DNA from: Acetobacteraceae bacterium ESL0709
Lineage (GTDB): Bacteria > Pseudomonadota > Alphaproteobacteria > Acetobacterales > Acetobacteraceae
Assembly (NCBI GenBank): GCA_029433415.1
Contig: JAQTIA010000002.1
Location: 385,501-449,500 of the forward strand
Direction of reading: 5' to 3'
Length of the DNA stretch: 64,000 bases
Shown here: positions 19,421 to 60,099 of the stretch, one piece after another
Layout: each line of letters begins with the position of its first letter
Numbering within the stretch: the stretch's first letter is position 1
Position numbers and translations under genes: made by a program
Notes under the pieces: generated by a model
Database searches by the model: none
What the model was told of the DNA's origin: nothing
Seen by the model: the letters and a program-made list of their open reading frames with translations, nothing else

Positions 19421-22126
19421 ATGCTTGATCCCGAAATTGTGAAATTGGCTCAGTTTTGGGGTAAGGCACGTCCTGCTGAAGGGGGTGACGTTACCATGCA
19501 CCCTCTTATGGCGCATATGCTTGATGTTGCCGCCGTGGCGATGGAGCTTCCCCTAGGCAGGCATTGCGGGCTGGATATACGTCTGGTCGGGTTTCTGGTG
19601 GCGTTGCATGATATTGGGAAATTGTCGCCGGCTTTTCAGGGGAAAGTCAAAGAATGTTGTCCGTCTTTTTTACCAGAAAAGACGACGGTTTCGCGTAACC
19701 ATGCGTCTGTGACTTTGCAGCTTCTGATAAAATGGTTTGATAATGAGAAAAGTTTTACAGGGTCTCTGGTAAAGCCACTAATTGTAGATCATTTCGAGAA
19801 TAAAACGGAGATTCTGAATTTACTCTGTCAGATCTTGGGTGGTGTTGCTGGTCATCACGGAGTGCCGACGATAGATGAGGATGGCAGGCTTGATGACTTG
19901 ACGATTGCTTATGCTGAGAGACTGACTGTTTTATTGCTGGATATCTTCCAGCCTCCTCCTTTTACACCCGACATTCTGGAGCATCTGCGTGAGGTGGAAT
20001 GGAGGCTTGCTGCCCTCACCATTCAGGCGGACTGGGTGGGGTCCCGTCAGGAATGGTTTCCCTATGTGGTAGCGGAAATGCTGCATGATCCAAAGAAATA
20101 TTTTCAGGAAGTTTCGTGCCATCAGGCCAGAAGGGCGGTTGAAAAAGCAGGTCTTTCAACGGTTCCGGTTTCTGAATTTGACGGCATAGGGCATCTTTTC
20201 CCGGAGATTAAAATGCCTTCTCCTCTTCAGTTATTGCTGGAAACAGTGCCTTTGCCTGAAGGGCCTGTTCTGGTCGTTATTGAGGACATGACAGGCAGCG
20301 GCAAGACAGAAGCGGCTCTGACAGTGGCTCATCGTCTGATGGAAAAAATGGCCGCGACCCATGAAATGGCGGGACTGTTTGTCGGTCTCCCCACGATGGC
20401 GACCGCCAACGCTATGTATAAACGTCTTGCAAAAGCCTATCGCGGTCTTTTTTGCGAGTCTGCACGTCCTTCTTTGGCTCTGGCCCATGGGCGGGCTGAT
20501 ATGAATGGAGATTTTCGTGAGGCCATCGTAGCGGAGGATTTTCGGGATAAAGGGGATCCTGATACGGCTGAATCCTGTTGTGCGTCGTGGCTGGCTGGTG
20601 AATCACGTCGGGCGTTGATGGCGCAGGTGGGGGTGGGGACGATTGACCAGGCTCTGCTTTCTGTATTGCCGGTGCGCTATGCAACCATCAGGCAGGCGGG
20701 TCTCGCTCATAAAGTGTTGTTGATTGATGAGTGTCATGCCTTCGATTCTTATATGAATGAGGAAATCTGCGCCCTTTTGCGTTTTCATGCCGCTTTGGGA
20801 GGATCCGCCATTCTGCTTTCGGCTACACTGACAAAGGCGCTCAGGCAGAGGCTGGTTAATGCGTTCCAGTCTGGTTGTGGCGACAAGGATCAGTCATCCC
20901 TGAAGTGCGATGCTTATCCACTGGTCACCATAGCGGGGCCTTCTGGTCCTCCATTGGAGTTGCCTTGCGCCTTGCGTCCCGGTCTGGAGAGGACCATCAG
21001 AATTGTGCGCCTTGATACGCTGCGTTCTGCGGAGGAAGTTTTACTGTCAGCCTATCGAAAAGGAGCTGCCTGCTGCTGGATACGCAATATGGTTGATGAT
21101 GTCATTCAGACGGCACGTGCCCTTGGTGAGCAGGGCGAGGATGTGACCGTCTTTCATGCCCGTTTTGCCATGATTGACAGACTGGAGGTTGAGAAGAAAA
21201 TTATTGCCCGCTTCGGGAAGAAGAGCAAAGGGACGGAGCGGACTGGGCTTCTGATTGCCTCGCAGGTGATTGAGCAAAGTCTTGATCTTGATTTTGACGT
21301 GTTATGCACGGATTTGGCGCCGATGGATCTGATTTTGCAAAGGGCGGGGCGTTTGCGACGTCATCACCGTGAGAGTCGGCCTGTCGATAAGGATGAGCTT
21401 TATGTGCTTTCGCCAAAGCCCGTGCCAGAGCCGGATCCATCATGGGTAAAATCCTTTTTGCCTGGTACAGCCGCGGTTTATAGGGATCCTGCCCTCTTAT
21501 GGCGCACGGCGAGAGTGCTCTTCCGGTGTGGTGTTGTGTCATTGCCCGGGGATATGCGGAGTTTGATTGAAGAAGTTGCTGATAATACCGCTCTTGGAGC
21601 GGTGCCGCCGGCTCTGGAATATGCTGCGAATGAAAAAGAAGGAGATGACATGGCCGGTGCGCGGATGGGGCGCCAAAATACCTTGCGTTTTGATGATGGA
21701 TATAAGCCTGATGATCTTCTCTGGGGGACAGAGCAAAAAACACCGACAAGGCTGGAAACGGGGCCTTCCATCATTCTTAGACTGGCTTTTGAAAAGGACG
21801 GAATGGTCCTACCGTGGGCGGTCAGAAAAGGGAAGGCTTTCTCATCACATCAGGAAAAACATGAAGCGTGGGCTTTTTCAGAAGTTTCTGTCAGAAGGAA
21901 CCGTCTGACAGAGGTTATGGTGCCAGATCATCTGGCAGAGTCTGTCCAAAAAGCGCGTTCGGGTTGGTCACGCTGGGAGCGGGATGATGATGAGAATTAT
22001 CTTCTTCTTGTTCTGGAGCTTGATGGTGGGGCATGGCATGGTAAAGGCGTTGACGAAAATGGGCGTGACGTTTTTATGCACTATAGCGAGTATTATGGGC
22101 TGGAATTTAGAAAAGGTCGGAAATAG
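19421..22126 (+). CDS. cas3: CRISPR-associated helicase-nuclease Cas3 (type I-E)
   Basis: Cas3 is recruited by Cascade to a bound target and unwinds and degrades the displaced DNA strand. The 901-residue protein has an N-terminal HD nuclease domain (H in MHPLMAHMLD, the metal pair in ALHDIGK at about residues 62-68, further histidines in RNHASV and AGHHG). A superfamily 2 helicase follows, with DMTGSGKTEAAL at about residue 288 and LLIDECHAFD at about 433. Motif VI-like QRAGRLRRHHR and a C-terminal domain complete it. All key residues appear intact and the length is normal. It is the first gene of an eight-gene operon; cse1 starts 98 bases later. Confidence 0.97.
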   Translation: MLDPEIVKLAQFWGKARPAEGGDVTMHPLMAHMLDVAAVAMELPLGRHCGLDIRLVGFLVALHDIGKLSPAFQGKVKECCPSFLPEKTTVSRNHASVTLQLLIKWFDNEKSFTGSLVKPLIVDHFENKTEILNLLCQILGGVAGHHGVPTIDEDGRLDDLTIAYAERLTVLLLDIFQPPPFTPDILEHLREVEWRLAALTIQADWVGSRQEWFPYVVAEMLHDPKKYFQEVSCHQARRAVEKAGLSTVPVSEFDGIGHLFPEIKMPSPLQLLLETVPLPEGPVLVVIEDMTGSGKTEAALTVAHRLMEKMAATHEMAGLFVGLPTMATANAMYKRLAKAYRGLFCESARPSLALAHGRADMNGDFREAIVAEDFRDKGDPDTAESCCASWLAGESRRALMAQVGVGTIDQALLSVLPVRYATIRQAGLAHKVLLIDECHAFDSYMNEEICALLRFHAALGGSAILLSATLTKALRQRLVNAFQSGCGDKDQSSLKCDAYPLVTIAGPSGPPLELPCALRPGLERTIRIVRLDTLRSAEEVLLSAYRKGAACCWIRNMVDDVIQTARALGEQGEDVTVFHARFAMIDRLEVEKKIIARFGKKSKGTERTGLLIASQVIEQSLDLDFDVLCTDLAPMDLILQRAGRLRRHHRESRPVDKDELYVLSPKPVPEPDPSWVKSFLPGTAAVYRDPALLWRTARVLFRCGVVSLPGDMRSLIEEVADNTALGAVPPALEYAANEKEGDDMAGARMGRQNTLRFDDGYKPDDLLWGTEQKTPTRLETGPSIILRLAFEKDGMVLPWAVRKGKAFSSHQEKHEAWAFSEVSVRRNRLTEVMVPDHLAESVQKARSGWSRWERDDDENYLLLVLELDGGAWHGKGVDENGRDVFMHYSEYYGLEFRKGRK

Positions 22127-22224
22127 TTAATTTTTTACAAATATAGGAGAGAAGTCAGTGTAGAAGATAAGGGTGGTTTTTTTATTGAAACCGTGCATTA
22201 TTATGTCTGGTATTATTCAGGATT

Positions 22225-23877
22225 ATGGATGTTATGGGTAAGGACGTTTATTTCAATCTTATTCATGATAAATGGCTTCCCGTGCGTCGTCGCTCAGGCA
22301 AGAGAGAGAGGATCAGGCCGGCTCAGATTGTCGATCAGAGTGAGAGTGATCCAGTTGTCTCTTTTGAGTGGTCCCGTCCTGATTTCCAGGTTGCCTGTTA
22401 TGAATTTATGATCGGCCTGCTGGCGACAGCCTTTCCTCCTGCAACAGTGGATGAGTGGAAGAAGCTTTGGCGTACCCCCCCGACGGTAGGGAAACTGGAT
22501 GAGACTTTTTCCAGGCTGGATGAGGCTTTTTATCTCAACCGTCCTGAAAAACGTTTCTTGCAGGATTTTTCAGAGCTTGAATCGTCCATTGAGCTTGTTG
22601 AGCGTCTGCTGATTGATGCGCCGGGAGACAGTACGGTCAAGAAAAATACGGATCTTTTTATTCATAGAGGCCGGATAAGGGCTATGAGCCTGCCTGATGC
22701 TGCCATGGCGCTCTATACGCTTCAGTCATGGGCGCCTAGTGGTGGAGCGGGAAATATGACCGGGATACGCGGGGGCGGCCCCATGGTTACGCTGGTGTTG
22801 CCACGCCGACCGGATCCGCAGGATAGTGAGAAAACGCTTCCTCCAACCTTATGGGATACGCTCTGGGCCAATACACCCTGCGGTAAGGTTGTCACAGAGC
22901 AGGATATGCCGAAGGTTTTTCCCTGGATGGCGCCGACCATTATTTCCGGCAAAAAGGGGCGGAAGATTGATCCCAAAGACAAGGCCGTTGACCTGCGTCA
23001 GTGCTGGTGGGGTATGCCAAGGCGGATCAGGTTGTGTTTCGGAACGGATGAAAAAGGCGAAATTCTGGTCACAGGCTGGAAACAGCGTCCTTATGGGCCG
23101 GATTATACAGGCTGGATTGGAGAGCCGTTGGATGTAAAGAGCGGGGTTGTCGTTCACCCCTTGACGCCACGTTATCGTGCCAAGGCCACTTCTGAGTGGC
23201 TTAGCCTGCATCCGCAGCCGGGGGGCGTTCATTATAAACATTGGGCCGGGATTGTTGCAGAGGTGGAAAACCGTCTTCCGGCCAGTAATGTCGCAAACTG
23301 GCGGAATAAACGCGCTTCCTGTACGGGCCTTAATAATGAGCAGAGCAAAAATGTCCGTCTGCTTACGGCTGGATATGATATGGATAATATGAAAGTCCGC
23401 AATTTTCTGGAAAGCGAAATGCCCTTGCCGGGTGATGGCGAGCCAGAATTGCAAAGGCTGCGTGATGAGTGGGCAAGGCATGCCATTGAAGGTGCCGCCA
23501 TGGTGCAGAGTGTTCTGAAACAGGTCATTAAGAACGCTATGCCCAATAAAAGGGATGCCTCTTATGACACGACTTTCTATACAACGATTGATCAGAAATT
23601 TACTGAACGGACGGAAAATAAATTTTTTGAATTGATCTTAAAGAAGGAAGACGGTGTGATTTTGAGTAGAGAGTGGCTCAAGTCAATAAGAGGTGCGGCA
23701 CTGGATATTTTTAGTGAAATTACTTCTTTAACGTCAGGAACAAAATTGACAAAAGCGGGGAAAATCGTGGCTGCTAAAAGGCGGTTGAGAGCGGTGTTAG
23801 GTTCTGAGAATTTGGCCAAAATACTCGGTCTTCCTTTTGAGATAATCCGTGAAAGGAAGATCAAAAATGCCAGATAA
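22225..23877 (+). CDS. casA: Type I-E Cascade large subunit Cse1 (Cas8e)
   Basis: Cse1 recognises the PAM, opens the target duplex and docks Cas3. The 550-residue protein opens with FNLIHDKWLPVRRRSGKRER, the signature N-terminus, followed by VSFEWSRPDFQVACYEF and LNRPEKRFLQD. WAPSGGAGNMTGIRGGGPM at about residues 170-190 lies in the region of the DNA-contacting loop. The C-terminus is helical. ATG 22225 is used; ATG 22234 is a plausible alternative. The 3' end overlaps cse2 by 11 bases. Confidence 0.95.
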   Translation: MDVMGKDVYFNLIHDKWLPVRRRSGKRERIRPAQIVDQSESDPVVSFEWSRPDFQVACYEFMIGLLATAFPPATVDEWKKLWRTPPTVGKLDETFSRLDEAFYLNRPEKRFLQDFSELESSIELVERLLIDAPGDSTVKKNTDLFIHRGRIRAMSLPDAAMALYTLQSWAPSGGAGNMTGIRGGGPMVTLVLPRRPDPQDSEKTLPPTLWDTLWANTPCGKVVTEQDMPKVFPWMAPTIISGKKGRKIDPKDKAVDLRQCWWGMPRRIRLCFGTDEKGEILVTGWKQRPYGPDYTGWIGEPLDVKSGVVVHPLTPRYRAKATSEWLSLHPQPGGVHYKHWAGIVAEVENRLPASNVANWRNKRASCTGLNNEQSKNVRLLTAGYDMDNMKVRNFLESEMPLPGDGEPELQRLRDEWARHAIEGAAMVQSVLKQVIKNAMPNKRDASYDTTFYTTIDQKFTERTENKFFELILKKEDGVILSREWLKSIRGAALDIFSEITSLTSGTKLTKAGKIVAAKRRLRAVLGSENLAKILGLPFEIIRERKIKNAR

Positions 23878-24514
23878 GCTCAGTGATTCTGATAAGTTCT
23901 TGGCTAGATTACTTATAAAATGGTGGCAGACAGCGACTGATATCAAAGACGGTGATCGCGCTTCATTGGCACGTCTTCGGCGGTGTAGCAATATTGCGGA
24001 GGCCGTGAATGAATGTGCTTTTATCGGCCTTTTAGGTTGTTGTGGCAGGGCTAGGGAGAATGATTGGGTGAAATTGGCTCTTGTAGCGTCTGTTCTGGCA
24101 TATATCAGAGGTGATCAAGGGGAATGCAAAAGAAAAAAGGAAGAAGCTGATGAAAAAAAGTCAGATAATTCTGATGAATATCAGCCTCCGGAATCGAATG
24201 CACGTTTGATTGGTCCAGACGCTGATAGAGTGGATGCCGAGGATGCGTCGTCAGCACTTTATAAAATAGTTCGTTTTCGGCGACTGTTGTCGGTGAAAAC
24301 AGTAGAAGAGTGTCAGCGCGCCTTTCGTCGCCTCGTTATGCTTATGAAAGGTAAGAGAATTATCAATATTGAGGATTTGGTTGCATCCCTTCTTCAATGG
24401 TCTGCCGATATTGCTGGTGAAGAAATTTCCGAGAAACGTCATTTAAAGTGGGTAGAGGATTATTATTGGAATACAGCCTCTTATAAAAACTCTCAAAAGA
24501 TGGATTCTGTCTAA
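23867..24514 (+). CDS. casB: Type I-E Cascade small subunit Cse2
   Basis: Cse2 is a helical protein, normally present as a dimer, that runs along the belly of Cascade and stabilises crRNA and target DNA. The 215-residue product from ATG 23867 contains KWWQTATDIKDGDRASLARL, RRCSNIAEAVNECAF and a conserved basic segment VRFRRLLSVKTVEECQRAF. An acidic/lysine-rich stretch (KRKKEEADEKKSDNSDE) occurs near residues 88-105. The frame is open six codons upstream, but ATG 23867 overlapping the cse1 stop is typical of this operon. Confidence 0.93.
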   Translation: MPDKLSDSDKFLARLLIKWWQTATDIKDGDRASLARLRRCSNIAEAVNECAFIGLLGCCGRARENDWVKLALVASVLAYIRGDQGECKRKKEEADEKKSDNSDEYQPPESNARLIGPDADRVDAEDASSALYKIVRFRRLLSVKTVEECQRAFRRLVMLMKGKRIINIEDLVASLLQWSADIAGEEISEKRHLKWVEDYYWNTASYKNSQKMDSV

Positions 24515-24581
24515 TTTTACAGTTTCGGTCTTAATTAAATAGTTTTCCGAGTTACATCGGTCTTACATAAGGAATTTTCTC

Positions 24582-25706
24582 ATGAGTCGTTTTCTTCAGT
24601 TGCATTTTTTGACCTTTTATCCTCCTTCAAATGTCAATCGTGACGATACAGGCGCGCCAAAGACGGCGACTGTGGGAGGTGTAACGCGATTGCGGATTTC
24701 ATCACAGGCACTGAAGCGGGCCTGGCGGACATCGCCTGTTTTTACAAAAACTCTTGAAGGCCATATGGGGCAACGGACGCAGCGTCTGGCTGAGGAAATC
24801 TTCACGCATTTGCGGGGGAAGGATATCAATGAGAAGGAGGCTACGGAGATTTCTCGTGAGATCGCTAAGGCCTTCGGTAAGGTGAAAGAAGAAAAACCTC
24901 AGAAAGAGACTGCTGACGATAAAAAAGAGAAGGAAGATAAAAAGGCCAAAAAGGAAAAAGTCGTTAATACTCTTCTGACTGAACAGCTTGTCTTTATTTC
25001 TCCCGATGAATTTGCGGCAGCTTATGACATGGCGGACAAGATGGCAGCCGGTGAAAAAATTGACCCGGTAAAAGAGAAGGAGGCCGCTTTACTCTTCAAG
25101 GCTGATACAGCCGTCGATATCGGGCTTTTTGGTCGTATGCTGGCTGATACGCCGACCAGAAACCGTGAAGCCGCTGCTCAGGTTGCTCATGCGATTACAA
25201 CGCACCGCGTCACAGTCGAAGATGATTATTACACTGCTGTTGATGATCTGAAAACAGCAGCGACTGACAGTGGCGCCGGCTTTATTGGAGAAGCGGGTTT
25301 CGGCTCTGGCGTTTTTTACCTCTATCTTTGTATTAATCTGGATCTGTTTAAGAAAAACCTTGGCCCACAGGCTGATGAGACCCTTATGAACAAGGCCCTC
25401 GCGGCTCTGATTGAGGCAGCGGCAACGGTAACACCTTCAGGGAAACAGAACAGCTTTGCCGCTCATGCTCGTGCCGGGTATATTCTGGCTGAAAAAGGCG
25501 ATGAGCAACCCCGCACTTTGGCCGGGGCTTTTGCCAAGCCTGTAACAGGTGGCGATCTGATGGATGAGTCCGTCAAGGCTCTCGGAAGATTCAGGGAGGA
25601 TTTGAGCACTATTTATGGTGCGGGTTGTAGTAAAGACTTTGAAGTATCAGTCGGGTCAAAAGAGAAGAAAACCCTCAAGGATCTCATAAAATTCTGCCAG
25701 CTATAA
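24582..25706 (+). CDS. casC: Type I-E Cascade backbone subunit Cas7e
   Basis: Cas7e, in six copies, forms the crRNA-binding backbone of Cascade. The 374-residue protein starts LQLHFLTFYPPSNVNRDDTG and continues VTRLRISSQALKRAWRTSPVF, the canonical N-terminus. DIGLFGRMLADTP, TPSGKQNSFAAHA and the C-terminal region follow. An unusual Lys/Glu-rich insertion, with KEKEDKKAKKEK at its core, occupies about residues 100-128 where homologs are shorter. AGGAATTTTCTC precedes the ATG. cas5e follows 10 bases later. Confidence 0.96.
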   Translation: MSRFLQLHFLTFYPPSNVNRDDTGAPKTATVGGVTRLRISSQALKRAWRTSPVFTKTLEGHMGQRTQRLAEEIFTHLRGKDINEKEATEISREIAKAFGKVKEEKPQKETADDKKEKEDKKAKKEKVVNTLLTEQLVFISPDEFAAAYDMADKMAAGEKIDPVKEKEAALLFKADTAVDIGLFGRMLADTPTRNREAAAQVAHAITTHRVTVEDDYYTAVDDLKTAATDSGAGFIGEAGFGSGVFYLYLCINLDLFKKNLGPQADETLMNKALAALIEAAATVTPSGKQNSFAAHARAGYILAEKGDEQPRTLAGAFAKPVTGGDLMDESVKALGRFREDLSTIYGAGCSKDFEVSVGSKEKKTLKDLIKFCQL

Positions 25707-25716
25707 GGACAGCGTC

Positions 25717-26634
25717 ATGGCACGGTTTTTGACCTTTGCCCTTGTTGCGCCTATGGCGTCTTTTGGGGATATTGCCGCCGGCGGTTTTCGCGATGGAGTG
25801 TTACGTCCTGCGCGTTCGGCTCTTTTGGGATTGATTGCTGGCTGTCTTGGCCTGACGCGTGAGGAAGAGACAGAACATCGGGCATTGTCAGATCATTACG
25901 GAATCGCATTATTGTGTTATAATAATGGCGATCTCCTGATTGATTATCATACGGCGCAGATGGCGCCAGCTATGCGCAAGCGGGTATATGCCACGCGAGC
26001 AGCAGAGCTTGCAGTCGATCCGACAGAGCTTTCAACTGTATTGTCCTATCGCGACTATCGTACAGGCAGCTGGCATCTTGCGGCTTTATGGTTGCGTGAT
26101 GATAAAGGCCCATGGACCCTCGAAGAATTGCAGAACGCACTGAACCGACCCGTTTTTACGCCTTATTGGGGGCGTAAATCATGCCCATTTTCTTTGCCTT
26201 TTACGCCTGAGATTATGGAAGAGGAAACAGCAGCGCAAGCTCTTTTGGAAAGGCATGCCAGCGGGAAAGAGTCGCAACTTTTTTATGGCGCCAGATTCCG
26301 TAAGGAGGAGCAGTCTCTTAAGGACGATGCTGAGGGGGACGAGGAGAGCGCGGAAGAGAAGAAGGAGGAGAAAGCTCCCGCCGCTTATCTTTTTTTCCGT
26401 AATCGGCAGTCCGGCCAGAAAGATAATAGCGCGATGACCATCGTGATGGACGCCCGGGATGTTGAGAGGCAGGGCGGTGCTTGTGTGCTCTCGCGCCGGG
26501 AAAATCGGCGTGATCAGCCATTATCGCGGACGCGTTGGGAGTTTGGCCTGCGCGAAGAAGCTGTTTTAACAGTGCCATCCTCAAAATTATTGTCCCCAAA
26601 AGCGTCAATGTCAGAAGCGGAGGTACAGTCATGA
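25717..26634 (+). CDS. casD: Type I-E Cascade subunit Cas5e
   Basis: Cas5e caps the 5' handle of the crRNA in Cascade. The 305-residue product begins FLTFALVAPMASFGDIAAGG and has LRPARSALLGLIAGCLGL, the RAMP-type N-terminal region. It continues YRDYRTGSWHLAAL and TPYWGRKSCPFSLPF. It is longer than most Cas5e (~225-250). The excess is an acidic insertion rich in Glu, Asp and Lys at about residues 190-220 (DDAEGDEESAEEKKEE). It overlaps cas6e by ATGA at 26631-26634. Confidence 0.94.
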   Translation: MARFLTFALVAPMASFGDIAAGGFRDGVLRPARSALLGLIAGCLGLTREEETEHRALSDHYGIALLCYNNGDLLIDYHTAQMAPAMRKRVYATRAAELAVDPTELSTVLSYRDYRTGSWHLAALWLRDDKGPWTLEELQNALNRPVFTPYWGRKSCPFSLPFTPEIMEEETAAQALLERHASGKESQLFYGARFRKEEQSLKDDAEGDEESAEEKKEEKAPAAYLFFRNRQSGQKDNSAMTIVMDARDVERQGGACVLSRRENRRDQPLSRTRWEFGLREEAVLTVPSSKLLSPKASMSEAEVQS

Positions 26635-27329
26635 GTGATCTTTATCTCTCGCGTGTTTCCCTGCGCCGTGATGCGTCAACGCGGGCGTTGACCGGCATCA
26701 TTTTGAAAGGCTCGGGAGGGGAGCAATGTAATGCGTCTCATTCCTTGCTCTGGTCGTTATTTGCAGATTCTCCTGATCGTGAGCGCGATTTTCTTTGGCG
26801 GCAGATGGAGGGGGGCTCGTGCCTCATTCTTTCTGAAAGACTGCCGGAAGATCGGCATGCGCTTTTTGATGTGGAAAGCAAGGGTTTTGAACCCAATCTC
26901 CAATCGGGAGATAAATTGCAGTTTCAGCTTTGCGTAAATGCTACGGTCGCCCGGAAAAATGATGAGCAGAAAGGAAAGCGTGAAAGAGGAAAACGTCATG
27001 ATATCGTGATGGATGCCTTATATAAAATCCAGCGAGATCAACGGGCTGAGAAAAGGGTCGAGTTAACGCACAACGCGGCTTTATCATGGATGTCTGCTCA
27101 AGGAGACAAGGCAGGTTTCAGGATGACAGAGGCGTTTGATGTTAAATCCTGTGACATTCTTAAAATTCCCAGAAAACAATTTTATAAATACGCGACATTT
27201 GGCGTGATGGATGTGACAGGTGTGCTGGAAGTCACCGATCCAGAGCGTTTTCTTGGGAAAGTGAAAGAGGGTTTCGGTCGTGCCAAGGCTTTTGGCTGCG
27301 GTCTTATGCTCATCCGTCGTGCCTGTTAA
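26631..27329 (+). CDS. casE: Type I-E crRNA endonuclease Cas6e
   Basis: Cas6e cleaves the pre-crRNA at the base of each repeat hairpin and stays bound to the 3' end. The 232-residue protein starts MSDLYLSRVSLRRDASTRAL. It has CNASHSLLWSLF with the likely catalytic His at residue 37, and ends with the Gly-rich GFGRAKAFGCGLMLIRRA. A basic insertion (KGKRERGKRH) interrupts the middle. I chose ATG 26631, overlapping the cas5e stop, over an upstream in-frame ATG inside cas5e. Confidence 0.95.
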   Translation: MSDLYLSRVSLRRDASTRALTGIILKGSGGEQCNASHSLLWSLFADSPDRERDFLWRQMEGGSCLILSERLPEDRHALFDVESKGFEPNLQSGDKLQFQLCVNATVARKNDEQKGKRERGKRHDIVMDALYKIQRDQRAEKRVELTHNAALSWMSAQGDKAGFRMTEAFDVKSCDILKIPRKQFYKYATFGVMDVTGVLEVTDPERFLGKVKEGFGRAKAFGCGLMLIRRAC

Positions 27330-27332
27330 ATC

Positions 27333-28590
<1,258 letters not shown>

Positions 28591-35488: not shown

Positions 35489-35720
35489 GATTCTGTCAAT
35501 ATGATTTTCAGGAGACTGAAGGTTCTTAAGTAATATCAGTGGATTATGCAGGGAGGGGGAGAAGAGGTGCGGAGACATTGCGTGATATCCGACGTTCTTT
35601 CAGGCGCTCCAGGAAGGGAAATTTTATGGCAGACAGCTTCTGGAAAACAGGAGTTCTTGCAGGGAGCGGTCACCTGCCGTGCGCCGTGCCGTAAAGACAT
35701 CCTGAAAGCCTCTTCTGACT

Positions 35721-35826
35721 GCCTATAATTTAGGCATATGATCGGTAGATTTCTTGACAGGATTTTTCTTATGGAATAACAATCACTTCCAACAAGCCTG
35801 TTCCCCGCACGCGCGGGGATGAGCCG
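35721..35826 (+). CRISPR. CRISPR leader with a single repeat and no spacer (locus B)
   Basis: The leader from GCCTATAATTTAGGCATATG onward carries TTGACA at 35754-35759 and a TAACAA -10-like hexamer 17 bases later. Its last bases, CACTTCCAACAAG, equal those at loci C and D. It is followed directly by a 29-bp repeat at 35798-35826 that differs from the array consensus at two positions (first base C and GAGCCG in place of GAACCG). No second repeat follows within 150 bases. It is either a virgin array or one trimmed by deletion. Confidence 0.85.
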
Positions 35827-35977
35827 GATTTGGTCAAGCTCCTCCCTGTTCGGAAGGCGTAAATATGTTGGATTCTTGTTTCGGGGCAAGGCTGGTTCTG
35901 CACAGGATGCCACTTATTTCAGTCGTTCAGCCCTCGCCTTGGACCCTATTAAAAATTGAGCGTAAAAGGAAACTATG

Positions 35978-36347: not shown

Positions 36348-37040
36348 TTAAAAAATATCATCAAGAGGATTGAGACTGTTAGAAAGCTCCTTAAACTCCA
36401 TTTTCTGAAGAAAATCAGAGACGTTAAAATTAATTTTATGCTTAATTTTATGCTGAAAATCTTCTGTACTTACTGATTCTTGCAATATTTTATTCTTCGC
36501 AAAGAAATCACACATATATAGTTCATGAAATATCCACGGTGACTGGGTAATGTTAATGTCATTTCTTAGTTTCGTAGAATTTTCACTCTCCAAGAAAAGA
36601 AAAATTCTACACTTCTCAATCATAGATGTCAAAAGCGACGTTAGCATAATATACATCGAAGAGTAATAATAGCTATGCCCGGGATCATTTTCTCTGAGCT
36701 TATTTATAATTTCTTCGACGTTATACCATACCGACGAATCAACAAAACACCTTTTTTGATATGTTTTTTCTATATATCCTTTCAGACGCAAAACATCCTT
36801 TTCATCCATATGTGAATGTGATATGAAAACATCGTAATTTATATCATTTGGGAAATATTTTTTAATAATATCGTCTACATTAATCTCATTTTTAAGTAAA
36901 TCCCTTAATGCTAAGGAAAATTCTGACCTATCAAAAGGTCCTTTAGAAGTTTTTTTATTGTTTTCTTTGTTGAGAGATATGCTATTTTCTAATAATGAAT
37001 GGCCCTGCTCATTGATCTCTACCCTGACTGCCTTTTGCAT
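36348..37040 (-). CDS. TIR-domain protein (candidate anti-phage NADase or sensor)
   Basis: The 230-residue protein has a hydrophilic N-terminus of about 65 residues. A TIR-like core follows: INYDVFISHSHMDEKDVLRL (strand A and box 1, about residues 68-87), YIEKTYQKRCFVDSSVWYNV, SSMYIMLTSLLTSMIEKCRI and ITQSPWIFHELYMCDFF. This matches bacterial TIR proteins whose core ends in a SPW(I)xxE element. TIR effectors often cleave NAD+; a catalytic Glu may lie in VEEIINKLRE, but this is uncertain. It has a strong Shine-Dalgarno (GGAGG). AT-rich, it diverges from a membrane protein gene and both lie between matching transposase relics. Confidence 0.72.
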   Translation of the reverse strand: MQKAVRVEINEQGHSLLENSISLNKENNKKTSKGPFDRSEFSLALRDLLKNEINVDDIIKKYFPNDINYDVFISHSHMDEKDVLRLKGYIEKTYQKRCFVDSSVWYNVEEIINKLRENDPGHSYYYSSMYIMLTSLLTSMIEKCRIFLFLESENSTKLRNDINITQSPWIFHELYMCDFFAKNKILQESVSTEDFQHKIKHKINFNVSDFLQKMEFKELSNSLNPLDDIF

Positions 37041-37242: not shown

Positions 37243-37782
37243 ATGTTTCATTCAAGAAAAAAATCTCTTCTCACTGATCGTGAGCTGGAGGAAATCAAAC
37301 AAGCGGCTGAAGATAAAAGAAAATATCTTGAAATCATTCAGGCTGTTATTGGCCGTATGTCAGCCTGTTCAGACGCTACCAGAGCGGGTACGGTCACATT
37401 TCTTATAGCTATCTTCAGCTATATGGCGACTCAGAATAACAGATATGAAGCCTCTCATCTGCTCTCAGGGAAACTATGTTTCGGCTATCTGATCTTTATC
37501 GTCATCATGTGGCATTTAAGCGCCTATTATCTCAGGCAAAGTCGGTTATTTCGTCAATTATACGCCCATGTCATTAAAATCAAATATCCAGATAAAATTG
37601 ATTTCAGTCTTTTAACAAAGGAATATGAGTCGAGAGTGCATTCATGTATCCGAATTATGTTTAGCAGGTCTTTATATCCTATTTATGTATTCTGTGTTCT
37701 GATAACACTCTTGGCTGGACCTTTTCTTTCCTATTTCTCAAAATTTTTCTGTGCTTTATGCTCAGGCCTTATTAAATTTTGA
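37243..37782 (+). CDS. Small membrane protein paired with the TIR gene
   Basis: The 179-residue protein starts with a charged helical N-terminus (DRELEEIKQAAEDKRKYLE). IIQAVIGRMSACSDATRAG runs into TM1 (TVTFLIAIFSYMA, about 50-63), then TM2 (CFGYLIFIVIMWHLSAYYL, about 78-97) and TM3 near the C-terminus (YPIYVFCVLITLLAGPFLSYF, about 148-168). The cytosolic helix, RM...G-T motif and three helices resemble small uncharacterised membrane proteins found beside TIR genes. A pore-forming or membrane-anchoring effector is possible; that is inference. I do not recognise a named family. Confidence 0.6.
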   Translation: MFHSRKKSLLTDRELEEIKQAAEDKRKYLEIIQAVIGRMSACSDATRAGTVTFLIAIFSYMATQNNRYEASHLLSGKLCFGYLIFIVIMWHLSAYYLRQSRLFRQLYAHVIKIKYPDKIDFSLLTKEYESRVHSCIRIMFSRSLYPIYVFCVLITLLAGPFLSYFSKFFCALCSGLIKF

Positions 37783-38593: not shown

Positions 38594-38638
38594 GGCCTTA
38601 TCGCTCTTCTTTTGGGGGTGCGATAAGGCCTTTTTTTA
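38594..38638 (+). terminator. Strong terminator separating the module from the CRISPR leader (copy C)
   Basis: GGCCTTATCGC (38594-38604) pairs with GCGATAAGGCC (38620-38630), followed by seven T. Copy D has the same hairpin with A changed to G in the 3' arm, giving a G-U pair that keeps the stem. Confidence 0.93.
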
Positions 38639-38639
38639 T

Positions 38640-38717
38640 TGCCTATAATTTAAGCACATAATCGGTAGATTTCTTGACAGGATTTTTCCTATGGAATAAC
38701 AACCACTTCCAACAAGA
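38640..38717 (+). promoter_or_regulatory. CRISPR leader and promoter of the array (locus C)
   Basis: TTGACA at 38674-38679 and TAACAA at 38697-38702, spaced by 17, form a sigma70-like promoter. It would start transcription 5-10 bases before the first repeat. The same 78-base leader is found at loci B and D, and in decayed form at A. Confidence 0.78.
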
Positions 38718-38929
38718 GTGTTCCCCGCACGCGCGGGGATGAACCGAGGTTACGTGCCCGCACGATGCGGCGCTGGACGTGTTCCCCGCACGCGCGGGGA
38801 TGAACCGCGCATTTTGTGTTGGTGCAGATGCTGGGCTATGTGTTCCCCGCACGCACGGGGATGAACCGACATTCAACATGGTTAGAGATCTTATCAAGGA
38901 GTGTTCCCCGCACGCGCGGGGATGAACCG
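38718..38929 (+). CRISPR. Type I-E CRISPR array, four repeats and three spacers
   Basis: 29-bp repeats start at 38718, 38779, 38840 and 38901, each GTGTTCCCCGCAC then GCGCGGGGATGAACCG (the third has A for G in the loop-side arm). The three spacers are each exactly 32 bp (38747-38778, 38808-38839, 38869-38900). The repeat palindrome CCCCGC/GCGGGG and the 29+32 pattern are hallmarks of type I-E, fitting the cas operon 10 kb upstream. The last repeat ends 22 bases before the stop of the convergent gene. Confidence 0.98.
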
Positions 38930-38951
38930 CCATTATCTCATTTCTGAACTC

Positions 38952-52406: not shown

Positions 52407-53543
52407 TTATTTTCTTTTTTTACCATTAGGTAATATCTCTGAAACCCGCTCCTTAAAGATGGCTATCAGGGCTGTGTCTATGGCGGATAGAGAATTTGTC
52501 ATTATTTCTCCGCCATTTTCATCTCCAAAGTCGAACTTGTATTTTGCTTCCTTGCTTTCATATAAATCGAATAATCTGCCTGCACGTTCTTTGCCATAGA
52601 AGACAACGAATTTCCCTTTATAGTCCTTATAATCGACAGCTTCGATGGCAGAAAAAAGTTCGTCTGTGTCAGAAAGGAAAGCAAGCCTTCTCTTGATATA
52701 ATCAAAAACTTCCAGTTCTATTTCAGACGGTGTGAAGTCCTGGTCCTTGGCTTCGTCGCTACTTTCCTGTTTGGGAATCTCTGCCGCTACGAGGGGCTTT
52801 TCTGTTTCTTTATCTTTTGCAGGAAGGTCAAGACGTTGCAGAATCCTGAGATTTATGAATTCACCAAAAGCGTTTTTTGTCAAAGCTGTATAGTCTGCCA
52901 TGGCTTTTGCACGCACATTGCTCAAGCCGATCCCTTGTAGCAGAAGGCGGACAAAAGCATCACTCGGTTCTTTGGCCAAGGACTCAATTTGATGGACAAG
53001 ATTCTGGAAAATAAGCTTTCTTTTGGCCTCTGCGCCGATATTTTCTGGATCGAAATTTGACTTTTGTAGACTTTTTAGTCCTTCGACGACAGAATCTTCA
53101 ATCTTCCCTTTCGCAATATCGTGCAGATCAAATGTAAGAAAGGCGTTGGAGTCCATCATATTTGGCTCATCAGAGTCAGCATAGAACTCATAAACCATAC
53201 CATTTGTAATAACGCCCATTTTTACTGTCGGAGCGGCGTTGAAATATGATCTTAGCTGACCCCGGTCATCTTTCAGTTCGGCTCCGAGGGCTTTACATTC
53301 TATGGCGATGACAGGAGAACCCTCTTTCAGAATAGCAAAATCAACACGATTCTTATATTTGTCAGAGAAGTCTGCATTATGTTCCGGGCACACTTCATCG
53401 GGATTCGTAATATCGTATCCAAGAAAGCCTATAAGAGGCAGGACAAGGAAAAGTTTGGTTGCTTCCTCATTGGCGCAGCGTGCCGAGGTATTTATCATCC
53501 GTTCTGAGAAGGTCCTGAATTTTTGGCGAAAATCGTCTGACAT
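52407..53543 (-). CDS. HsdR N-terminal-type restriction endonuclease, orphan
   Basis: The 378-residue protein starts FRQKFRTFSERMINTSARCA, NEEATKLFLVLPLIGFLGYD, then NRVDFAILKEGSPVIAIECK. This gives a PD-(D/E)xK nuclease core with Asp in VDFAI and E-x-K in IAIECK (about residues 70-90). It matches the type I restriction R-protein N-terminal domain but lacks helicase motifs. A Lys/Glu/Pro linker (about 245-280) leads to a C-terminal domain (VFYGKERAGRLFDLYES). No methylase or specificity gene is present. It may be a stand-alone defence nuclease. Confidence 0.8.
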   Translation of the reverse strand: MSDDFRQKFRTFSERMINTSARCANEEATKLFLVLPLIGFLGYDITNPDEVCPEHNADFSDKYKNRVDFAILKEGSPVIAIECKALGAELKDDRGQLRSYFNAAPTVKMGVITNGMVYEFYADSDEPNMMDSNAFLTFDLHDIAKGKIEDSVVEGLKSLQKSNFDPENIGAEAKRKLIFQNLVHQIESLAKEPSDAFVRLLLQGIGLSNVRAKAMADYTALTKNAFGEFINLRILQRLDLPAKDKETEKPLVAAEIPKQESSDEAKDQDFTPSEIELEVFDYIKRRLAFLSDTDELFSAIEAVDYKDYKGKFVVFYGKERAGRLFDLYESKEAKYKFDFGDENGGEIMTNSLSAIDTALIAIFKERVSEILPNGKKRK

Positions 53544-54803: not shown

Positions 54804-56948
54804 TTACAATTCACCGATAATGCTGAAATAGGCGCTGCGTCTTTGGCCATATTGGGGCTGGAAGATGCCAATGCCGCTGCCATCATGGAGGGTGTAATGT
54901 TTGTCAAAGAGATTCATGATGTCCATGCGCACTTTCACCTTATGACCGGGAATAAGTTTGAGGAAATTATATTGATAGCTGAAGTTGAATATATCATAGG
55001 GTGACTGTTTTCCCAGATTGGCAAAGCCTTTTCTCAGACCATTGCCATAGAGAAAGTCGAGTGACACAAGCTGGCGTTTCGTGTGCCATGAGAGTCCGGC
55101 GCTGGCGGTATATTTTCCCTGATGGTCCAGATGGATTCTGTGGTTTTTGATGTAATCAAGTTCTTCCTGATCAAAGTGATATTGCCCCGAGCTTACGTCT
55201 TGCCCGTAAGTCTGGACGTAGGAAAAATTGCCAAAGAACTGCCAAGGGCCGGAGTGAAATGATAATCCTGTTTCTCCGCCATAAACCTGTCCATGACGGT
55301 AATTGAAGGGCGTCGTGATGATGGCCTGTCCAAACTGTCCTGTATCAAGTAGGTTATGCGCCCATTTGCTGAAACCATCAATGCTGAGATCCAGATGCGG
55401 GGTGAGGGCGGCCGTCAGACCGGTATCAATATAGTGGGAGGTCTCGACTTTTGGTGCGCTGTTCTCGCTGGTTTCAGGCGCATTTGTTGTGTTTTCGAAA
55501 TGAGCAAGGGAACGGGAAGAAAGATATTGCGGTGCAGGCGGCGTAAAATAACGCGCATAGCCCAGATGAAGCGTGACCTGGTGACTTGGTTTCCAGATCA
55601 GCGAGGCACGCGGGCCGAGCTGGTCGTCACGTCTGAAGGAGGAGGCGAAATTATCGTACCGCACGCCGTAAGTGAAAATCAACTGACGGTTGATATGAAA
55701 CTCATCCTGCACATAGGCGCTCGTTTCTGTAGCCCAGTTGCCGGAATTGTCGATCAGGCGATGAGGTTTTGAGGATGTCAGGTTTCCGTCTTCATTTGTT
55801 GCGAAAAGGGATGTATCGGTTCCAAGCGTTTCGTCTGTATAATGTCCCAAAAGACCCGCGCGCAGGATATGATGGGGTGCGATATTCCAGTAAAGATCAG
55901 CCTGCATGCCGCCAGTGGTGAAATCATTGATCTGTTTCTGTGCAACCCCCTGATAGATAAGGTCCCTTTCCCGATCCGAGAAATAGGCAAGCCGGCCATA
56001 ACGGAAATAGGGAGAGAGCTGAAGACCGAAATCGTCCTGCTTATAATTATAGGACAGGATGGCATAATGATTCTGTTCATTCTGCTGGTCTTTTACAAAG
56101 CGTGAATTGAGATGGTAAGGCAGGGTCTCTATCCTCTCAGGCAGATAGGCGGGCTCCAGATTGGGAGTGGCGGGGAGATGAAAGTCCCCATAAGAGACGC
56201 TTGTAATCAATGTCAGGCTGTGGTGAGGGTTAAAATGCCATGAGAGATAGGAAAATTCTTTCCCTTGTTGCGTCAGGTCATGAACAGGGCGGAATGAGTT
56301 GGTCGGATTTTCAATCCCGAGTGTATTATGATTGTAGGAAAGGCTGACAAAATAATCGAGCTTTCCTCGGCTTCCTCCCAGTTGGAGGGAAGGATTGATG
56401 GTGTTGTAGCTACCACCATAAAGGGAGACTTCATTATGGTTCAGTCCTGTCCCTTTTTTGGTCGTAATATCCACAATGCCTGCGGTATGAAGGCCATATT
56501 GGGCGGGTAAGGTCCCTGTCAGAAGGTTGAATGACTGCACAATACGCGTATCGACAACCTGACCAAATCCCTGAAGGCTTTCAGGCAGTAGAACGCCATT
56601 GATGCGGTATGTCAGATTGCCATGCTCACCGCGGACATGAACCTCGCCATAACTGTCCTGCACGACGCCGGGCATATGGAGCATGACCTGATTGAAAGAG
56701 GCGTTTTCTCCCTGTGGGAGTGTTTCGATATTCCGGGCCGAAAGGTGATAGGATGTTGCTCCGGAGGAGGTGATCTGCGAACGTGCTGGCGTCCCCGCCC
56801 GGACCGTAATATGGTCCTGCTGCGGTTTGTCCTCATTCTTCTGAGTGGTGGCATCTTCCCCGAATGAGGCTGAGGGCATCAGCAATGCGGTCAGACATGC
56901 CGAGCAGAGCAGGCAGAAACGGGAAACAGACAGGGCAGACCTTTTCAA
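54804..56948 (-). CDS. TonB-dependent outer-membrane receptor
   Basis: The 714-residue protein has a signal peptide (LCSACLTALLMPSASFG). A TonB-box region (HITVRAGTPARSQITSSG) and plug (NVQVMLHMPGVVQDSYGEVH-like, VRGEHGNLTYRINGVLLPES, VDITTKKGTGLNHNEVSLYG) precede a long barrel ending in SAYFSIIGEL. It resembles receptors for metal chelates or small organic ligands; the substrate is unknown. A Fur-box-like site lies 55 bases upstream, favouring iron control. Intact length. Confidence 0.92.
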   Translation of the reverse strand: MKRSALSVSRFCLLCSACLTALLMPSASFGEDATTQKNEDKPQQDHITVRAGTPARSQITSSGATSYHLSARNIETLPQGENASFNQVMLHMPGVVQDSYGEVHVRGEHGNLTYRINGVLLPESLQGFGQVVDTRIVQSFNLLTGTLPAQYGLHTAGIVDITTKKGTGLNHNEVSLYGGSYNTINPSLQLGGSRGKLDYFVSLSYNHNTLGIENPTNSFRPVHDLTQQGKEFSYLSWHFNPHHSLTLITSVSYGDFHLPATPNLEPAYLPERIETLPYHLNSRFVKDQQNEQNHYAILSYNYKQDDFGLQLSPYFRYGRLAYFSDRERDLIYQGVAQKQINDFTTGGMQADLYWNIAPHHILRAGLLGHYTDETLGTDTSLFATNEDGNLTSSKPHRLIDNSGNWATETSAYVQDEFHINRQLIFTYGVRYDNFASSFRRDDQLGPRASLIWKPSHQVTLHLGYARYFTPPAPQYLSSRSLAHFENTTNAPETSENSAPKVETSHYIDTGLTAALTPHLDLSIDGFSKWAHNLLDTGQFGQAIITTPFNYRHGQVYGGETGLSFHSGPWQFFGNFSYVQTYGQDVSSGQYHFDQEELDYIKNHRIHLDHQGKYTASAGLSWHTKRQLVSLDFLYGNGLRKGFANLGKQSPYDIFNFSYQYNFLKLIPGHKVKVRMDIMNLFDKHYTLHDGSGIGIFQPQYGQRRSAYFSIIGEL

Positions 56949-57002
56949 CAGACCCTCTCACAGGAAGCTGGTGGGAACATGGTAAATCTATAGAGTTCCA
57001 GA

Positions 57003-57018
57003 TGAGAATGAAAGTCAA
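57003..57018 (-). promoter_or_regulatory. Fur-box-like site upstream of the second TonB receptor
   Basis: TGAGAATGAAAGTCAA on the plus strand compares with TGAGAATGATTGTCAA in reverse complement at the first receptor. Spacing to the receptor start is about 55 bases. Confidence 0.55.
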
Positions 57019-57133
57019 CTGAAAGAGCGTCTGGATTTTCAGTTCATGATATGTGTATATGAATCAGGCAAAGTAGAGGTCGCTATAATTTTTTATCAGT
57101 TATAGGACTTTCGAGCATTATTCAAGGTGTCTT

Positions 57134-58672
57134 ATGAGAGATATATCTGACCTTTCAGCGGATGAGGCTAAGGAATATTTTTTAAAAGGAAGTAGCTACT
57201 TCAATCATGATCTGCCGCTTTATATCTCTTTTGACAAAATGTTAAAAAATGTTTCGAAGTTTCTTAATGGGATAGCGGGAAATACTTATTTAGGTCTCAA
57301 AACGAAAAAACCAGATCTTATTGATGGTGTTAATTATACATTTCTTGCAAATAAAGATGGAAGATTTGCGTGGCGACCATTGGAGCTAATACATCCGCTA
57401 ATTTATGTCTCTCTGGTTAATATATTGTGTGCTAAGGAGAATTGGAATATTATTAAAAATAGATTATCCTTATTTAAAGAAAATGAAGTAGAATGCTGTA
57501 GCCTTCCTGTAACGTCGTCGATATATAAGAAAAACTCTGGTGCACAAATATATAAATGGTGGCAGGATTTTGAGCAAAAATCGATAAAATGCTCGCTTGA
57601 ATTCAGCCATCTTTTGAAAACGGATGTCATGGATTGCTATGGCTCTTTATACACTCATAGTATTTCGTGGGCCCTTTATGGTAAGGATGTTTCTAAAAAA
57701 TTACTGGAGGATAAAAAGAAAAAATCTCATAATTTAGGAGATAAGATTGATAGTTTTATCAGAGCAGGCAGATATGGTCAGACGAACGGTATATCACAAG
57801 GCTCCGTTTTGATGGATTTTATTGCGGAGATTGTTCTTGGTTATGTAGATAATTTAATTTCTATAGAACTAAAAGAAAGAAATTATTTAATATTTAAGAT
57901 ATTACGCTATAGAGATGATTATAGAATATTTACTAATGACGATATCAAAGGAGAAGAAATATTAAAAATAATCAGTGATAAACTTCGTGTAGTTGGTATG
58001 CGTCTTAATGTTGGGAAGACAGTAGTATGTTCTAATCTTATAGAAGGAGCCATAAAGGAAGATAAGCTAGCGGCTATTAACCTTCAGGATCTGGGTGTGG
58101 CTAATGCCCGCACATTGCAAAAGCAATTGCTACGTTTGCATGCTTTTGGAAGAAAATATCCTAATAGCGGAGCTCTCAAGAGACTTCTTATGGAATTGTT
58201 TGAAAAAATAGAGAATAAAGAAGTCCCTGATCTTAAAAATTTTTCAGAGGACTTGGAGATTTATGTCTCTATAGTGACGGATATTGCATTTATATCGCCC
58301 GGAACTTTTCCGGTTGTAGCCGGTATTCTTAGTTATATGCTTGCATTAGCGCCTGATGAGTTGAAGGAATGTTTATGCAATAGGATTCTAGAAAAAATGC
58401 GATTATTGCCTTATAACGGTTATATAGAAGTTTGGTTGCAACGTATAATGAAACCACTAAAACTTAAGAAGAAATATGAAAGTGAAGACATTATATGTAA
58501 AATTGTAAATGAAGAGAATGCTCATTTATGGAATAATGATTGGATTAATAATCAAGATATTATTACTATAATTAACAATAATTATTCGTTTTTAAACGAT
58601 GTGTCGTTGGTATCAGAGGTTATGCATACAAAGGAGATATCTATTTTTGATAGAAATGCACACAACTATTAG
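57134..58672 (+). CDS. Unknown-group/Abi-type reverse transcriptase (candidate DRT defence gene)
   Basis: The 512-residue AT-rich gene encodes a reverse transcriptase-like palm. An N-terminal block (EAKEYFLKGSSYFNHDLPLY) precedes the palm. Motif A is LKTDVMDCYGSLYTHSISWA (about residues 161-180). A GISQGSVLMDFIAEIVLGYV block follows, then the catalytic motif C LRYRDDYRIFTND with YRDD at about 259-262, and MRLNVGKTVV. About 200 C-terminal helical residues follow, with no maturase, nuclease or nitrilase domain. This matches Abi/UG reverse transcriptases of the defence type. The exact class is undetermined. It stands alone between core-like genes, typical of recent transfer. Confidence 0.82.
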   Translation: MRDISDLSADEAKEYFLKGSSYFNHDLPLYISFDKMLKNVSKFLNGIAGNTYLGLKTKKPDLIDGVNYTFLANKDGRFAWRPLELIHPLIYVSLVNILCAKENWNIIKNRLSLFKENEVECCSLPVTSSIYKKNSGAQIYKWWQDFEQKSIKCSLEFSHLLKTDVMDCYGSLYTHSISWALYGKDVSKKLLEDKKKKSHNLGDKIDSFIRAGRYGQTNGISQGSVLMDFIAEIVLGYVDNLISIELKERNYLIFKILRYRDDYRIFTNDDIKGEEILKIISDKLRVVGMRLNVGKTVVCSNLIEGAIKEDKLAAINLQDLGVANARTLQKQLLRLHAFGRKYPNSGALKRLLMELFEKIENKEVPDLKNFSEDLEIYVSIVTDIAFISPGTFPVVAGILSYMLALAPDELKECLCNRILEKMRLLPYNGYIEVWLQRIMKPLKLKKKYESEDIICKIVNEENAHLWNNDWINNQDIITIINNNYSFLNDVSLVSEVMHTKEISIFDRNAHNY

Positions 58673-58758
58673 AATTTTACTTTAATTTATATTGTAAATG
58701 GTAATTTTATAGGTGAAAAATCGTTGCGTTTTCTGATATTTACGGATTTCATATTCCA

Positions 58759-60099
58759 TTATAATAGAAAAGATGTGAACTCACAAAAAGCCAGACCGCA
58801 TACAGCGATGATCGTTTCCAGTATGGACCATGTCTTAAGCGTTTGTGTGACCGTCAGGCCGAGATATTCCTTGATCTGCCAGAAGCCGGCATCATTCATC
58901 GGCCCGAAAGCGACCGATCCCGCTCCTGTGACAAGGACCATCAATTCTGGTGAAACGGTAGGGCTGTGGACAAGAATAGGTCCCATAATGCTTGAGGCTG
59001 TTGCTGTGGCTACTGTGGCAGAGCCAGAGGCCAGACGGACGATAACAGCGAGAAGCCACGCCAGCACCAGAAGGGGCATGTGAAAACCAAGTGCGGCCTG
59101 TGTAACAGAGTGAGAAACGCCACTGTCAATCAGCACACGCCCAAAACCGCCGCCAGCGCCAACGAGCAGCATGATCAGGGCTGTTGGTGCCAGACTTTCA
59201 TTGGTAAAACGCAATATGGTTTCGCGCGAGAACCCCCTTGCCAGTCCCAGAACGTAGAAGGACATAATGGTCGCAAGAGCCAGCGCAATGTCCGTATTGC
59301 CAATGAAATGCAAAAATTCGTTCAGACGGGACTGGGGTTTTGTCACCAGATCGGCGGCAGAGCCGGCCAGCATCAGGAATACGGGCAGAAGAATGGTCAG
59401 GACAGTGATGAAAAACCCCGGCAGGCTGGCGGGGCGCTCTGCCTTGACGAAGAGATCAGCCATAGCGTTATGCGCGTCCAGAGGGACACGTTTGGCAGCG
59501 AAACGACCAAAAATCGGTCCGGCAATGATGGCCGTAGGCGTGCCAATCAGAATGCCAAGAAGGATCGTTTTGCCCATATCGGCATTATAGGCTGAAAGGG
59601 CCAGCAATGTTGCCGGGTGAGGCGGCAGAAGGGCATGTGTGACGGAAAGGGCGGCTCCCATGGGGAGGGCCACTTTCAACAAGGGGGTATTGGTGCGTGC
59701 AGCCAGAACATAAGCCAGTGGAATCAGCAGGATAAAGCCGATTTCAAAAAAGACTGGCAGGCCTACCAGAAGCCCGATAACCATCATGGCCCAGTCAACA
59801 TGTCTGCGTCCTGCAAGCCGCGAGATGGTCAAGGCGATAGAGTCGGCGCCCCCGGATTCAGTAAGCATTTTGCCCAGCATGGTACCCAGTGCGATGACGG
59901 GTCCTACGTGGCCAAGCACATGACCAACGCCATTTTCAAAGGAGCTGACAACCTTGTCTGCGGGCATGCCAGCGCATAATGCCAGTAAAATGGAGACAGC
60001 AAAAAGAACAATAAATGGATTGAGTTTAAAACGGCTTATGCAGATGACGAGCGCCAGGATGGCCCCTGTAATGAGTGTAACGGCAAAAATCGTGCTCAT
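58759..60099 (-). CDS. GntP family gluconate:H+ symporter
   Basis: This 446-residue permease has about 12-14 hydrophobic segments. Signature stretches are GHVGPVIALGTMLGKMLTES, GGADSIALTISRLAGRRHVD, HALLPPHPATLLALSAYNAD (conserved Pro-Pro-His loop), LVGAGGGFGRVLIDSGVSHS and VLVTGAGSVAFGPMNDAGFW. Gluconate or a related sugar acid is the likely substrate, fitting acetic acid bacterial physiology. No kinase or regulator is adjacent. It ends 86 bases beyond the reverse transcriptase stop, on the opposite strand. Confidence 0.94.
   Translation of the reverse strand: MSTIFAVTLITGAILALVICISRFKLNPFIVLFAVSILLALCAGMPADKVVSSFENGVGHVLGHVGPVIALGTMLGKMLTESGGADSIALTISRLAGRRHVDWAMMVIGLLVGLPVFFEIGFILLIPLAYVLAARTNTPLLKVALPMGAALSVTHALLPPHPATLLALSAYNADMGKTILLGILIGTPTAIIAGPIFGRFAAKRVPLDAHNAMADLFVKAERPASLPGFFITVLTILLPVFLMLAGSAADLVTKPQSRLNEFLHFIGNTDIALALATIMSFYVLGLARGFSRETILRFTNESLAPTALIMLLVGAGGGFGRVLIDSGVSHSVTQAALGFHMPLLVLAWLLAVIVRLASGSATVATATASSIMGPILVHSPTVSPELMVLVTGAGSVAFGPMNDAGFWQIKEYLGLTVTQTLKTWSILETIIAVCGLAFCEFTSFLL

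Follow-up and report, generated by a model that had tools for sequence, protein, structure and literature searches.

The closest described system is Abi-P2 (ORF570; PDB 7r08) of coliphage P2-EC30, which provides resistance to T5, forms a trimer, and carries out template-independent synthesis primed by its own tyrosine (PMC9508834). In this enzyme, the Y61F substitution abolishes DNA synthesis, whereas Y46F does not (PMC9508834). Both Abi-P2 and AbiK of Lactococcus lactis (7r06, 7r07) are built from a reverse transcriptase (RT)-like domain and a helical domain, and AbiK likewise performs protein-primed, template-independent synthesis; unlike Abi-P2, however, AbiK is a hexamer and carries its priming tyrosine at another loop position (PMC9508834). 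Template-independent synthesis is also the mode of the Class 1 systems studied so far (PMC13174585). The Class 2 DRTs (DRT2, DRT9, and DRT10) are templated by a noncoding RNA (ncRNA), which is conserved and adjacent to the gene.

Here, we compare these systems with an RT gene in a stretch of 64,000 nucleotides from Acetobacteraceae bacterium ESL0709 (referred to, at its full length, as the window). The open reading frame (ORF) at 57134-58672 (+) is intact, with an ATG start and 512 codons (512 amino acids), and its translation contains TDVMDCYGSLYTHS, QGSVLMDFIAEIVLGY, and RYRDDYRIF. An earlier note on this DNA had quoted these motifs as those of an RT, a reading that is well founded, given a match to the PADLOC AbiP2 profile (E 3e-178) far beyond chance. 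The gene is the single match to PF00078 in its genome (profile search), which in size, base composition, and gene content resembles that of an acetic acid bacterium. It is also AT-rich, as the same note had said, with a GC content of 32.8% (28.3% at third positions) against 49.7% for the window; the genes upstream and downstream have 49.7% and 53.5%, respectively. The features of the gene are as follows:

57134..58672, + strand: abiP2-like gene, putative Abi-P2 family template-independent DNA polymerase (PADLOC AbiP2 profile, 7r08 sequence and fold, tree)
57221..57223, + strand: codon of Tyr30 (LPLY), the Tyr61 equivalent (7r08 alignment; Tyr invariant in 57/57)
57623..57625, + strand: codon of Asp164, the motif A catalytic aspartate (invariant in 57/57)
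57905..57919, + strand: RYRDD, residues 258-262, with catalytic Asp261 and Asp262 (invariant in 57/57; same in 7r08)

Class assignment and active site

The PADLOC AbiP2 profile matches the protein with 592 bits over profile positions 4-487 of 489, the runner-up being UG14 with 174 bits; the NCBIfam models for Drt4, Drt3b, and others match below threshold only. When the protein was compared with PDB sequences using phmmer, the best match was 7r08 (E 1.9e-68, query residues 1-475), and the second chain was a Drt3b (E 1e-17). The AlphaFold2 model of the ORF protein, built from 57 sequences (pLDDT 91.3, pTM 0.92), placed six 7r08 chains on top in Foldseek (E 2.0e-28 to 5.0e-26; TM 0.83/0.87 at E 2.0e-28), and the first match other than 7r08 was DRT4 (E 6.7e-14). 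In VIA, the same model aligned with 7r08 over 466 residues at Z 38.0 and 2.5 Å with 31% identity, and further matches were DRT6 (Z 25.0), DRT4 (24.1), UG15 (23.8), and AbiK (21.4, at 15% identity). Two quickly built trees each set the AbiP2 rows, with the window protein among them, apart from all other rows by a single branch (SH-aLRT support 99-100); the comparison rows were Drt3b in the first tree and Drt3b, Drt4, and Drt6 in the second, which left out two long-branch AbiP2 rows, and UG14 and AbiK were absent from both. Profile searches of 160 genomes yielded no UG14, Drt3b, or AbiK references, and the Drt3b rows were drawn from profile matches in genomes of the window's order.

Because profile, sequence, fold, and tree agree, we assign the protein, on the strength of its sequence and modelled structure, to the Abi-P2 class. 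The earlier note was thus right to see a defence-associated (Abi/UG) RT and mistaken in holding that its class could not be fixed, since the protein falls in an already characterised class with the same two-domain build, an outcome that the note itself had named as refuting its reading. The RT-like domain spans approximately residues 1-313 and the helical domain approximately residues 314-490, with modelled helices from about 302 to 484. As such, the C-terminus that had been called unclassified is the Abi/Class 1 helical domain, reproduced by the AlphaFold2 model, and the C-terminal tryptophans conserved in the family are retained.

That the protein instead belongs to another UG class (UG14, DRT4, DRT6, or DRT3b), or to a new class between them, is extremely improbable. 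The profiles of all four classes do give significant matches to the ORF, which is expected because an RT core and a helical domain are common to all, but none exceeds 174 bits against 592 for AbiP2, no other UG class exceeds a fold Z of 25.0 against 38.0 for 7r08, and the trees, which lack UG14 and AbiK, keep the Drt3b, Drt4, and Drt6 rows apart from the AbiP2 group. DRT3b, DRT4, and DRT6 have the same class of RT and helical domain as the window protein; they nevertheless form separate tree groups and differ at the active site, with YVDD in DRT3b and other letters in DRT4 and DRT6. The chance that this is an RT of a group II intron, a retron, or a DGR is smaller still, to the point of being negligible: the group II intron maturase model matches weakly (36.8 bits, where its cut-off is 300), Rfam finds no intron RNA or other family in the window, and the structural match to RTs of these three kinds is largely confined to the RT core (~215-280 residues, Z at most 15.1; only ~245 residues for group II intron RTs).

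Given the Abi-P2 assignment, the active site can be compared directly with that of the P2-EC30 enzyme. The two proteins share their length class, their two-domain fold, the RYRDDYRIF motif, and a stand-alone gene. In the 57-row alignment, Y30, D164, R258, Y259, R260, D261, D262, and Y263 are invariant. The patterns used to retrieve loci contain RYRDD, so that the invariance of YRDD in the fetched loci is biased; in the first alignment, whose 11 sequences were found without this pattern, YRDD is present in 11/11. Two loci lack the exact retrieval pattern, of which one keeps RYRDD and the other (L035) has no such motif in the ORF piece examined. YRDD is unusual for RTs in general, and in this respect the earlier remark that it replaces the common YxDD with small x stands. 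However, since the motif is invariant in the aligned homologues and present in 7r08, the comparison of sequences indicates that YRDD is the normal signature of Abi-P2 and no oddity; it can serve as a dependable one.

The alignment pairs residue 1 of the window protein with residue 32 of 7r08 and has no gap in this stretch, so that Tyr61 of Abi-P2 corresponds to Tyr30, which sits in the same LPxY loop. Based on this alignment and on the model, we take Tyr30 to be the equivalent of the tyrosine on which P2-EC30 Abi-P2 depends for protein priming. In DRT3b, the valine of YVDD contacts the sugar moiety of the nucleotide added last, and it has been proposed that the product sequence is set by amino acids (PMC13174585). 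By analogy, R260 of YRDD may help to select the nucleotide, giving a biased or defined-sequence DNA set by amino acids rather than a random one. We consider such a role very unlikely, although it is compatible with the conservation of the arginine in all 57 homologues.

Flanking sequence and genomic setting

Upstream of the gene is a TonB-dependent receptor-like gene (54804-56948, -) and downstream a GntP-type permease-like gene (58759-60099, -). Both are named here from their sequence and face the other way, and neither gap holds a partner gene. The earlier note had suggested an ncRNA in one of the two intergenic regions:

56949..57133, + strand: upstream intergenic region, no conserved ncRNA detected (Rfam, folding, flank comparison)
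58673..58758, + strand: downstream intergenic region, no ncRNA detected (folding, flank comparison)

That suggestion gained no support. Leaving aside the P2-like and viral sets, we compared the flanks of 84 loci, taking at most 400 nt upstream and 400 nt downstream of the gene, in pairs with 50-80% protein identity. This comparison, which is blind to RNA encoded elsewhere or conserved by structure only, found shared sequence in 2 of 1880 pairs upstream and 1 of 1727 pairs downstream. At equal settings, 1613 of 1889 pairs were alike over the initial 400 nt of coding sequence and 1879 of 1889 over the next 400 nt. Rfam gave no match in the gene region or the whole window, and folding of the flanks showed no excess over shuffled sequences (z -0.56 for 56990-57133; +0.88 and +0.69 for the downstream strands). 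The flank comparison speaks against Abi-P2 genes having a conserved ncRNA encoded in cis. The P2-like prophage loci do have upstream sequence in common, which we attributed to the prophage surroundings that they share.

A partner protein is equally absent, in agreement with the earlier note. PADLOC and Pfam searches of the ORFs adjoining the genome loci revealed no recurrent partner gene: the commonest neighbour is a type I specificity subunit (6/73, upstream), a type I restriction subunit is found in 3/67 downstream, and the rest are scattered. At 6/73, the specificity subunit was ruled out as a general partner. Unconserved flanks and the lack of a recurrent neighbour are what would be expected of a stand-alone, untemplated enzyme.

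Some individual settings of the family may be recorded here. In L090, L102, and similar loci, the Abi-P2 gene apparently lies inside type I restriction-modification operons; at such type I-linked loci, the upstream DNA reads as the end of hsdS and the downstream DNA as the start of hsdR, with three HsdR matches. Under a strict test, integron attC sites were found at 3/78 loci, with none in the window; attC-like sites flank the Abi-P2 gene in L039 and L070 by this test and are seen by eye in L028 and L029. In an uncultured Rhodobacteraceae bacterium (L026:4571-8531), the gene stands between those for ribosomal proteins L4 and L2.

The P2-EC30 gene resides in a P2-like prophage, whereas the window gene occupies a chromosomal gap with no prophage seen adjoining it. 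In the one other genome of the same genus that was compared (G372), the order of the flanks is equal and there is no Abi-P2 match. Nucleotide similarity to this genome ends at window position 56731, inside the receptor gene, and restarts at 58802, a short way into the permease gene; between the flanks, G372 has two overlapping ORFs (248 and 268 amino acids) that read as a broken porin. Since similarity breaks at the locus and a broken porin is found in its place, the two genomes differ here by a change in gene content, either an insertion or the replacement of a porin. Searches for repeats or att sites at the borders of the gene returned short, chance-like matches only, and no tRNA was found at the locus.

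The AbiP2 profile, searched at E 1e-30 in 397 genomes of the window's order, matches in 11 of them. The match reaches family strength in the window's genome alone, the others scoring ~112-121 bits over the RT core. Of seven of these weaker matches scanned with PADLOC, six are full-length Drt3b (L003, L005, L006, L009, L010, and L012; 502-696 bits) and one is Drt6 (L011). A single public collection of genomes contains at least 462 candidate loci of the family. Abi-P2 proteins from Rhodobacteraceae and others (L026; HTCC2083, L027) and from an Agrobacterium plasmid (L013) are 57-59% identical to the window protein over their full or nearly full length (57-58% for full-length relatives), in genomic settings that differ from that of the window gene. 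We found no experimental characterisation of these homologues, of the window protein, or of its subgroup in the literature.

Two further explanations bear on this setting. If the gene were a Class 2-like DRT, a neighbouring ncRNA would template its DNA product. The 185-nt upstream gap could accommodate an RNA, and folding predicts stem-loops in it, although no better than in shuffled sequences; in addition, the DRT3 locus has an ncRNA, and its DRT3b is a related Class 1 RT (PMC13174585). We nonetheless regard this explanation as highly improbable, because the flanks are unlike in nearly all pairs while the coding sequences are mostly alike, Rfam has no match, and the fold is that of Class 1, DRT2 and DRT9 being distant matches at Z 14.0 and 12.2, respectively; the conserved adjacent ncRNA of Class 2 was not detected at the window gene. 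Somewhat less improbable, but still very unlikely, is that the gene is decaying or silent and serves no function today. Its AT-rich composition, its probably recent acquisition, and the absence of an Abi-P2 gene from G372 would fit such a copy, but the ORF is intact across the whole profile and retains the catalytic and priming residues and the C-terminal tryptophans.

Proposed function and other defence-related features

We consider it very probable that the gene encodes a horizontally acquired Abi-P2 polymerase working as P2-EC30 Abi-P2 does. By analogy with that system, its product would assemble into a trimer through the helical domain. The first nucleotide would be attached to Tyr30 (protein priming), after which D164, D261, and D262 would serve to extend a single-stranded DNA with no nucleic-acid template. 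DNA synthesis during phage infection would protect the population, probably by abortive infection. Trimer formation, polymerase activity, and phage defence are predicted from the P2-EC30 enzyme, and the 31% identity means that details such as the oligomeric state may differ. The gene is an ordinary member of a family already known; the case adds a divergent Abi-P2 gene from Acetobacteraceae and is of little importance by itself.

The window holds other defence-related features. At 52407-53543 (-), an ORF carries only the HSDR_N domain of type I restriction enzymes (Pfam E 1.4e-12), and the short ORFs beside it at 51.1-52.3 kb look like broken transposases, two of which were scanned and had no Pfam match. 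A run of ORFs at 19421-28292 (+) holds type I-E CRISPR-Cas genes, with Cas3 at 19421-22126, Cse1 at 22225-23877, and a CT1975-type Cas7 at 24582-25706 identified by Pfam. A small CRISPR-like array lies at 38718-38934, with four repeats at 61-nt spacing and a fifth copy 2.9 kb off at 35798-35831. Beside it is a 122-nt duplication (35705-35826 and 38625-38746, 89% alike). An AT-rich gene at 36348-37040 (-) has a PADLOC match (E 1.1e-30) to the Thoeris profile for the TIR-like ThsB and is accompanied by an ORF of 179 amino acids (37243-37782, +) with no Pfam family; this ThsB-like gene sits between the two duplicated stretches.
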